NCBI GenBank assembly: GCA_030066335.1
Contig: JASJBV010000005.1
Location: 1-34,802, forward strand
Length of the DNA: 34,802 nt
From: Gammaproteobacteria bacterium
Lineage (GTDB): Bacteria; Pseudomonadota; Gammaproteobacteria; GCA-001735895
Direction: 5' to 3'
The position numbers and the translations under genes are program-made. This document shows, in pieces, positions 1 through 13,263 of the stretch (position 1 is its first letter; each line of letters begins with the position of its first letter). The notes under the pieces are model-generated. The model searched no databases. It saw nothing but the letters and a program-made list of their open reading frames with translations, and was not told the DNA's origin.

Positions 1-140
1 GTAGATAATGCAGGAGCAATTATCGAGGGATGCGAATCGGCCCGTGCCCTGCAAAATCCGTTTATTTTCGGGAAGCCGCAGGCCACTCAGTGTGGGCGGC
101 ATTTCTAGGTTACTTCTTGTTGCTGTAGACAAGAAGTAAC
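1..140. repeat. Composite multi-hairpin intergenic repeat (left end truncated by window)
   Basis: Three consecutive inverted repeats: GATAAT(4-9)/ATTATC(19-24); GCCGC..CCAC/GTGG..GCGGC (75-100); perfect 11-bp GTTACTTCTTG(109-119)/CAAGAAGTAAC(130-140). The first resembles the reverse complement of 7943-7967. Confidence 0.6.
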
Positions 141-7179: not shown

Positions 7180-7812
7180 TTGAATATGTCAGCTGTCGCA
7201 AACAGACGCTCGGTGATGACCTGTTTTTCATCACCGATCGACCCCCAGTGTCATCGCAGCCGTATCGTGTTGGCGGAAAAGGACATTACCGTCGAAATCT
7301 ACGATGTGGATATGGATAACCTGCCGGAAGACCTGCTGGACCTGAATCCCTATGCCACCGTACCGACGATGGTCGATCGTGACCTGGTGCTTTACGACGC
7401 CAGGGTACTGATCGAGTACCTGGATGAAAGGTTTCCGCACCCACCGCTGATGCCGGTGGATCCGGTCTCCCGCGCTAAGGCTCGCCTGGGACTGTTTCGC
7501 ATCGAGAGCGACTGGTACAGCCTGCTGCCGGACATAGAACATGGTACCGAGAAGAAAAAGGAGCAGGCCAAGAAGGCGCTGAAGGAAAGCCTGCTCAACT
7601 CGATCGAGGTGTTCGCGGCTATGCCCTATTTCCTGTCGGAAGAGTTCAGCCTGCTCGATTGCAGCATCGCCCCGATCCTGTGGCGTTTGCATCATTACGG
7701 GATCGAGTTGCCGCCCTCGGCCAAGCCGATACTCGAATACATGAAGCGGATATTCTCCCGCACCTCGTTCCAGAAGAGCCTGTCCGAGCAGGAACGGGAC
7801 ATGGTCGAATAG
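7180..7812 (+). CDS. sspA: Stringent starvation protein A (GST-fold)
   Basis: Protein MTCFSSPIDPQCHRSRIVLAEKDITVEIYDVD...LNPYATVPTMVDRDLVLYDARVLIEYLDERFPHPPL is SspA-like; lies between petC and sspB. Start is TTG at 7180 or ATG at 7186. Confidence 0.95.
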   Translation: MNMSAVANRRSVMTCFSSPIDPQCHRSRIVLAEKDITVEIYDVDMDNLPEDLLDLNPYATVPTMVDRDLVLYDARVLIEYLDERFPHPPLMPVDPVSRAKARLGLFRIESDWYSLLPDIEHGTEKKKEQAKKALKESLLNSIEVFAAMPYFLSEEFSLLDCSIAPILWRLHHYGIELPPSAKPILEYMKRIFSRTSFQKSLSEQERDMVE

Positions 7813-7839: not shown

Positions 7840-7875
7840 AAGGCCGGTATTAAGCATAATACCGGCCTTTTTTTT
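7840..7875 (+). terminator. Rho-independent terminator after sspA
   Basis: Perfect 13-bp stem AAGGCCGGTATTA / TAATACCGGCCTT with AGCA loop, followed by a T-tract. Confidence 0.95.
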
Positions 7876-8013
7876 GCACAGGGACGTGCTTATGCTGGGA
7901 GGCCATGGATGGCAACGAGCAGTATTTACATGGATGCACTTCGACAATATGCTCCTGCATTGTCTACCTACGGCCATCCATGGCCTAGTATGCCGTGAAG
8001 CACAGGGATGTGC
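7876..8013. repeat. Structured intergenic repeat with outer palindrome, nested hairpin and flanking direct repeats
   Basis: Direct repeats GCACAGGGACGTGC (7876-7889) and GCACAGGGATGTGC (8000-8013); perfect 13-bp inverted repeat GGCCATGGATGGC (7901-7913) / GCCATCCATGGCC (7973-7985); nested GACAAT(7943-7948)/ATTGTC(7959-7964). Confidence 0.75.
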
Positions 8014-8149
8014 GAGAACGGCGCTTGTGCATGGATAAGCTTAGCAAAGCCTATGTGCTGCTGTTCCAAACCTGTCACTTGTCGGACTGGAAACTACCGA
8101 TCAGGATATTTGTGACGGATGCACTCCTACCGGAAGCCCTCGGAAGCGC

Positions 8150-8185: not shown

Positions 8186-8587
8186 ATGACCTCGAATAAA
8201 CCCTATCTGATCCGCGCCCTGTATGAATGGCTGGTCGATAATGATGCGACGCCACACATCATGGTGAATTCCCGTCATCCCCAGGTTGAAATTCCGCCCG
8301 GGATCGAGAAAGACGGCCAGGTGGTGTTGAATATTGCCAACCGTGCGGTGCGGGGTCTGCAGATCCTCAACGACCATATTCAATTTTCCGCGCGTTTCAA
8401 TGGCGTCCCCCATGACATCTTCATTCCGATCGAGGCGGTGATGGCGATCTACAGCCTGGAGGATGGCGAGGGCATGATGTTTGCCGAGGATAACTCCGGC
8501 GCAGAATCGACCGAAGCGCAGTCCGAAGACGCTGATGCCCAGTCAGCGCAGAAGCGAAACCGGCCCGGCCTGAAAATCGTCAAGTAG
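8186..8587 (+). CDS. sspB: ClpXP protease specificity-enhancing factor SspB
   Basis: PYLIRALYEWLVDNDATPHIMV...; acidic linker; C-terminal RPGLKIVK ClpX-binding (XB) motif. Confidence 0.96.
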   Translation: MTSNKPYLIRALYEWLVDNDATPHIMVNSRHPQVEIPPGIEKDGQVVLNIANRAVRGLQILNDHIQFSARFNGVPHDIFIPIEAVMAIYSLEDGEGMMFAEDNSGAESTEAQSEDADAQSAQKRNRPGLKIVK

Positions 8588-12757: not shown

Positions 12758-12764
12758 AGCACCA

Positions 12765-13104
12765 AGTCAGCCGGATAATCGCTGGTATCGTCAGATACTG
12801 GAGGAAAGTCCGGGCTCCACAGGGCAGGGTGCCAGGTAACACCTGGGGGGCGTGAGCCTACGGAAAGTGCCGCAGAAAATATACCGCCTGCCAGCTTGCT
12901 GGCAGGTAAGGGTGAAATGGTGCGGTAAGAGCGCACCGCGCTGCTGGTAACAGCAGTGGCAGGGTAAACCCCACTCGGAGCAAGACCAAATAGGAAAGCG
13001 ATGGCGCGGCCCGCGTTGCTTTCGGGTTGGTCGCTTGAGGCCGGTTGGTGACTTCCGGTCCAGATGAATGATTATCCAAGACAGAACCCGGCTTACAGGC
13101 TGAC
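12765..13104 (+). ncRNA. rnpB: RNase P RNA (bacterial class A)
   Basis: Conserved core segments GAGGAAAGTCCGGGCTCCACAGGGCAGGGTGCCAGGTAAC, GGGTGAAATGGTGCGGTAAGAGCGCACCG, GTAAACCCCACTCGGAGCAAGACCAAATAGG, and 3' CAGAACCCGGCTTACAGGCTGACT. Confidence 0.97.
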
Positions 13105-13110
13105 TTTTTT

Positions 13111-13263
13111 AATTTCACCACGAAGAACTCGAAGAACACGAAGGTTTTTAAGGCATTCGCTCGTCATTTAGTATGCTGTTATCTTTGCAAGTGGTGCGGT
13201 CTCAGAATCAGTCACTCAGCAATATCAAACTTCGTGATCTTCGTGCCCTTCGTGGTTAATTAC
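13111..13263. repeat. Palindromic, CACGAAG-rich intergenic element with imperfect terminal inverted repeats
   Basis: Left arm 13111-13150 (TTTCACCACGAAGAACTCGAAGAACACGAAGGTTTTTA) and right arm 13225-13262, whose reverse complement is TAATTAACCACGAAGGGCACGAAGATCACGAAGTTTGA; about 75 nt between arms. Confidence 0.75.

Follow-up and report, generated by a model that had tools for sequence, protein, structure and literature searches.

The intergenic stretch between sspA and sspB in a draft gammaproteobacterial genome (3.04 Mb, 230 contigs, 82% complete) raises the question of whether its palindromic sequence is a mobile DNA repeat, a source of structured RNA, or both. The window analysed here is one whole contig of this genome (G000:C175; 34,802 nucleotides), and an earlier note, made from the sequence alone, had delimited a structured repeat in it at 7876-8013. 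Two dispersed hairpin modules, termed type 1 and type 2, make up this segment in mosaic fashion, and the element is better delimited as 7876-8040. The features of the locus are listed below, R1 denoting the type-2 covariance model, which gathered 70 copies from many genera, and R2 the type-1 model (116 copies).

7180..7812, + strand: sspA, the gene 5' of the array, whose terminator is used (NCBIfam NF007016 SspA, E 2.9e-86; 288 bits, short of the curated 314-bit cut-off).
7840..7875, + strand: intrinsic terminator of sspA, the docking site, with a 13-pair stem and 4-nt loop (7840-7869) and then 8 T (terminator scan; fold -20.3 kcal/mol).
7876..7889, + strand: type-1 hairpin A, GCAC-A-GGGA-C-GTGC, loop CANGGANG, 0 nt 3' of the T-tract (sequence; R2 match 7876-7927).
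7890..7927, + strand: remainder of type-1 unit 1, with TTAT, the outer stem, inner hairpin B GGCCATGGATGGC (7901-7913, loop CATGGATG) and a GTATT end (R2 match; fold -11.7 kcal/mol).
7926..7939, + strand: hairpin A no. 2, with a decayed stem (TTACATGGATGCAC) and CATGGATG retained (sequence; no fold on its own).
7941..7985, - strand: type-2 unit in inverse orientation, closing with CGA after hairpin 2 (the genome's best R1 match, 69 bits).
7972-7985, - strand: hairpin 1 of this type-2 unit, GGCCATGGATGGCC.
7964-7967, - strand: GTAG tag of this type-2 unit.
7943-7964, - strand: hairpin 2 of this type-2 unit, GACAATGC-AGGA-GCATATTGTC.
7987..8026, + strand: type-1 unit 2, split by the type-2 unit, with outer stem GCCGT/ACGGC and a GCGCTT end (R2 match 7972-8026, 72.9 bits; fold -16.8 kcal/mol, z -3.7).
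8000-8013, + strand: hairpin B2 of type-1 unit 2, GCACAGGGATGTGC, inside the outer stem GCCGT/ACGGC.
8027..8040, + strand: hairpin A no. 3, a remnant (GTGCATGGATAAGC) and probable right end of the array (sequence; inference).
8186..8587, + strand: sspB, the gene 3' of the array (NCBIfam NF008769, E 1.5e-49).
1..26, + strand: second type-2 copy, truncated to GTAG, hairpin 2 and CGA, at the contig end (R1 match 39.6 bits, 5' end cut).

All motifs named in the earlier note are present, including the direct repeats said to flank the element (GCACAGGGAYGTGC at 7876-7889 and 8000-8013), the nested GACAAT...ATTGTC hairpin, which lies on the minus strand, and the second copy at the start of the window (GTAGATAATGCAGGAGCAATTATCGA at 1-26, cut by the contig end). 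The direct repeats are, however, not target-site duplications but hairpins that recur within the repeat unit. The outer palindrome, given as 13 bp, likewise exists but spans 14 bp (7900-7913 with 7973-7986) and is composed of hairpins B and 1, which belong to separate modules, either half of the inverted pair forming a hairpin by itself. Folding of the 138-nt element exceeds chance, outdoing 198/200 shuffles on the plus strand (z -3.1) and 200/200 on the minus strand (z -4.5). Beyond what had been recognised earlier, it is a two-module composite with its left edge fixed to a T-tract and a constant GGA loop.

Elsewhere in the window, the contig start falls inside another composite repeat (1-160). 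Here GGTTACTTCTTGTTGCTGTAGACAAGAAGTAACTCGC, a sequence resembling a hairpin found 3' of the type-1-like repeats of a distant genome (L362-L369), comes after the truncated type-2 copy. The segment 13112-13262, 3' of the RNase P RNA (12763-13111), contains a long inverted arrangement of the CACGAAG/CTTCGTG motif (CACCACGAAGAACTCGAAGAACACGAAGG ... CTTCGTGATCTTCGTGCCCTTCGTGG), and at another locus (L025) type-2 units lie inside a motif similar to this arrangement.

Type 1 is a 53-nt unit in which hairpin A is followed by TTAT and then by hairpin B within an outer stem of five pairs; both hairpins have five pairs around NGGA. These units run in tandem and end in GCTT, GTTT or ATTT, the left edge being fixed and the right edge fuzzy. 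Type 2 is a unit of 45-49 nt comprising CGA, hairpin 1 of the CANGGANG form, 2-5 nt, the GTAG tag, hairpin 2 of the form RYAATGC-A(N)GGA-GC(N)AATTRY, and a terminal CGA. In the tag T, A and G are nearly invariant (G 58/64), and the last G is able to pair in hairpin 2. With the element as query, BLAST recovers some 20 additional copies from the genome (E<1e-4). Many are at contig ends, as expected because repeats break assemblies. The covariance models retrieve 34 type-2 (E<1; 26 below 1e-4) and 29 type-1 matches. Tandem type-2 units of 47-49 nt occur at contig ends at L218 (G478:C85) and L118 (1-240); since assemblies break at such arrays, copy numbers from draft genomes are underestimates. 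Matches to R1 were found in 54/274 genomes sampled across Gammaproteobacteria, representing 42/221 genera, and in 14/399 genomes across the phylum, the carriers outside the class being confined to two families.

The earlier note had drawn attention to a single compensatory change between its two copies, and this observation holds in bulk. Among 64 distinct type-2 sequences (alignment A2), both sides of a pair are changed in 122 cells, as against 43 in shuffled alignments and at most 23 with the partners slid; 96.8% of the paired cells are standard pairs, whereas slid pairings are only 25-44% paired. The type-1 alignment (A4) shows 297 double changes against 92 in shuffled versions, and in its outer stem both sides vary in all five pairs. 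Alignments A2 and A4 had been fitted to the covariance models, and A1 and A3, aligned with MAFFT, gave the same result (39 double-change cells in A1, 14 shuffled). With many covarying copies, the pair originally noticed thus exemplifies a general rule, and the strong covariation in both types supports selection for folding, which the earlier note had suggested while setting it against two outcomes, an absence of further copies or of stem covariation; the copies are many and their stems covary. Mismatches in type-2 stems are symmetric (G.T 9, A.C 7). Type-1 stems read on the sense strand have 64 G.U against 14 A.C, or 25 against 14 without one pair, an excess that may stem from one subfamily or lineage. 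We conclude that the element belongs to a real, widespread and covarying family of mobile palindromes, i.e. REP/BIME-like DNA.

The first base of the array directly adjoins the T-tract of the sspA terminator (base 0), and this placement recurs. Among type-1 array starts sampled in the genus and family, 50/56 are placed 0-1 nt 3' of a tract of five or more T that directly follows a predicted stem, as compared to 18/1400 random positions, and the 50-mers upstream of the array starts have a mean fold of -16.5 kcal/mol against -10.0 kcal/mol in the control. The 6/56 exceptions comprise three internal units and three cases with a type-2 unit between the T-tract and hairpin A. At the sspA site in congeners, an array is present in the window and at L191, L195 and L197, whereas the terminator stands alone at L189, L192 and L194. 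L191 and L197 have other versions of the array, and L195 has four tandem type-1 units with every GGA loop sense to sspA; in all the sspA-site arrays the GGA loops share the strand of the gene upstream. The filled and empty sites therefore indicate that arrays were gained or lost, each time at the same base. At L353/L354 (G279), a convergent and probably bidirectional terminator has an outward array on either side, each sense to its own gene. More generally, type 1 is always sense to the gene upstream, whereas type 2 is not, its orientation relative to genes being near random (25:20, from crude ORF calls). A search of the congener genome G275 with the type-1 model returned no match, and none of the type-1-like repeats examined in G009, from another family, is at a T-tract; docking is hence claimed for this genus and family alone. 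Group IIC introns also target terminators, inserting directly 3' of the intrinsic terminator hairpin in a fixed orientation. Type-1 units share this placement and orientation, but are 53-nt non-coding units with neither ribozyme nor reverse transcriptase.

The two types are also nested. Type-2 units split type-1 units between TT and ATGC, as in the window, form tandems of 46-49 nt (L042, L094, L118), and lie within the loops of larger palindromes (L159, L223, L234, L246), flanking arms of at least 9 bp being found around 17% of them versus 2.4% of controls. At L113 (10450-10560), L146 and L223, the surrounding palindromes read CGTCATTCCGGC...GCCGGAATCC or CATACCGGAC...GATCCGGTATCC and hold type-2 units in their loop, which gives the impression that one family of repeats serves another as a target. 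In G249 and at L090, type-2 copies are nested in the loops of larger GGA-loop hairpins, with TGCAGATTTTGCA on one side and GGAGCAAAAATCTGC on the other. Dispersed copies, nested insertions and the filled and empty states of one site in congeners support the REP/MITE-like mobile palindrome envisaged earlier. Copies, docking, orientation, nesting, covarying stems and constant loops can all be read from the sequences themselves, and on that basis both mobility and docking are well supported.

Against variable stems, the loops are constant: CANGGANG in hairpins A, B and 1, and A(N)GGA (AGGA or ANGGA) in hairpin 2. The loop columns read C 62/62, A 62/62, N (T32 G15 C9 A5), G, G, A, T49/C11/A3, G 63/63 in type-2 hairpin 1, and C103, A104, N, G, G, A, T70/C22/A11, G 103/105 in type-1 hairpin B. 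A scan of GTDB contigs with a pattern covering GTAG and hairpin 2 only returned 66 stretches, mostly chance matches, of which about 13 are genuine (in Methylomicrobium, Methylobacter, Cellvibrio, Pseudoalteromonas, Colwellia and others), and a CANGGANG hairpin lies upstream in 13/13 of these. A genome-wide test for NGGA tetraloops found no excess outside the repeat clusters. Because the stems change freely and CANGGANG does not, the loop is likely to be recognised by a protein, which would act in trans.

A candidate for this protein is suggested by the form of the loop. High-affinity CsrA/RsmE targets are CANGGANG hexaloops (PMC4894983), and the CsrA SELEX consensus RUACARGGAUGU is situated in hairpin loops, with bridging across 10-63 nt (PMC7652899). 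The invariant and free loop positions (C A N G G A N G) agree position by position with the CsrA/RsmE consensus, and ACARGGAUGU is matched exactly within GCACAGGGATGTGC at 8000. The sense GGA sites of the window are at 7882, 7907, 7932, 8006 and 8033, with spacings of 25, 25, 74 and 27. The genome encodes a canonical CsrA with L4 and R44 present. Among genomes at least 90% complete, csrA is found in 51/52 carriers and 45/52 non-carriers, a co-occurrence that is consistent but weak since non-carriers commonly have the gene too. CsrA is the most likely, albeit unproven, RNA partner, and the hairpins may represent mobile CsrA-binding sites. In the comparison with Rfam that had been proposed for the locus, the CsrB/RsmY/RsmZ models gave no match and RNase P was the sole accepted match in the window. 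Matches to SdsR and the L20 leader at the terminator are weak, below gathering and not credible. The arrays resemble CsrB/RsmY/RsmZ and the CsrA SELEX hairpin in their serial hairpins with CANGGANG/ANGGA loops at dimer-bridging spacing (PMC7652899, PMC4894983). Unlike those RNAs, each the product of a single sRNA gene, they are dispersed mobile repeats behind terminators.

Among previously described repeats, the closest comparison is with the GTAG-tagged REPs/BIMEs of Di Nocera et al. 2013 (PMC3733652). Type 2 shares with these the short intergenic palindromes in many copies, GTAG by the stem-loop and compensatory stem variation, in agreement with the kinship to published REPs that the earlier note had raised, and also the head-to-head and nested clusters and the enrichment in Gammaproteobacteria. 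It differs in having two hairpins per unit with CGA at each end, and in that loops of GTAG REPs are mostly TY or CMA whereas all loops here are (N)GGA; the text of that paper contains no mention of terminators or GGA loops. The units likewise recall REPINs, which are moved by RAYTs, in being two-hairpin replicating units that form tandem clusters, but REPINs are inverted REP pairs, whereas here the hairpins are in direct order, present the loop on the same strand and have no adjoining RAYT (PMC3116915). In the literature searched, which is an incomplete sample, we found no earlier description of the type-1 or type-2 sequences, nor repeats with CsrA-type loops or terminator docking; relative to it, base-precise docking and invariant CsrA-type loops are new.

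We consider it probable that two REP/BIME-like mobile palindrome families are nested in one array at this locus, with type 1 docked at terminators and the sense transcripts probably binding CsrA. On this reading, type-1 units insert right behind intrinsic terminator T-tracts in one orientation, where they are harmless to genes, and multiply in tandem, since the short T run at the unit end can be the next docking point. Type-2 units insert in either orientation into type-1 arrays, other palindromes and elsewhere. T-rich docking beside a hairpin and the T run at the unit end could recall IS200/IS605 chemistry, and the mobiliser may act in a similar fashion on single-stranded hairpin DNA. A classical REP/REPIN-RAYT system, with a REP-associated tyrosine transposase moving the units, would account for the GTAG next to hairpin 2, the BIME-like inverted grouping and the presence of Y1_Tnp matches in 43/48 carriers, as well as for the one RAYT-like Y1 transposase in this genome (NF047646, E 1.7e-13; 50.7 bits, below the cut-off of 80). 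Cognate REPs normally adjoin their RAYT (PMC3116915), whereas our repeat flanks 0/40 Y1_Tnp loci from 16 other carrier genomes and not the genome's own either (L031), so that the REPIN/RAYT arrangement is absent from these loci, and the link to a RAYT raised in the earlier note was not found there. Moreover, there is no Y1_Tnp gene in G011, G119, G235 and G239, all of them carriers of the repeat with a completeness of at least 97%. This system, already weakened by these observations, is improbable as the source of the units. The parental IS of the CGA-bounded type-2 unit was sought as Y1_Tnp alone.

A stronger contender, to which we give appreciable weight short of probability, is a pure DNA element in which the GGA loops are the site of an HUH-type or other single-strand transposase and CsrA is uninvolved; the constancy of the loop would then reflect the inability of other loop variants to move. 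The nested and tandem insertions, the enrichment in larger-palindrome loops, the almost exclusively Watson-Crick pairs and the GTAG tag next to a bulged hairpin, as in REPs (PMC3733652), are all in keeping with it, as are the random orientation of type 2 and its symmetric G.T/A.C mismatches, which resemble those of DNA palindromes without RNA selection and count against an RNA role. It has no transposase to offer, given the Y1_Tnp results above, and agreement of the loop with the CsrA/RsmE consensus would be unlikely with an unrelated protein. A further alternative, that the arrays are CsrB/RsmZ-like sponges or 3' tails selected by the host at particular genes, has in its favour the sense orientation of every type-1 array, the 25-27 nt GGA spacing, the recurrence of sspA-terminator arrays in several congeners and the sense-strand G.U excess. 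We regard it as hardly probable, as the arrays vary in presence between congeners, with none in G275, lie 3' of the terminator and have no CsrB/RsmY/RsmZ counterpart in Rfam. Overall, the locus is more in line with a selfish element, possibly with side-effects on regulation, than with an essential function for the host.

Under the favoured reading of two nested, terminator-docked palindrome families, the loop-binding protein acting on transcripts would most likely be CsrA, and read-through RNA of sspA and other docked genes would therefore carry hairpins capable of binding a CsrA dimer, 25-27 nt apart, and might act as a weak CsrA decoy. Counting against such an RNA role, the arrays lie 3' of terminators, so that most transcripts would be without them. 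The further proposition that the mobile repeats spread CsrA-binding hairpins through bacterial genomes by docking exactly at the 3' ends of transcription units, with CsrA being titrated by the read-through RNA of numerous genes, appears rather doubtful; in that case the docking target might be the 3' end of the transcript or else the terminator strand when exposed. If the favoured reading is true, widespread palindromes of Gammaproteobacteria that pass for "junk" obey two unexplained rules, a CsrA-consensus loop and base-precise terminator docking. The first of these would tie mobile DNA to a global post-transcriptional regulator, and the second would point to a transposition mechanism that reads terminators.
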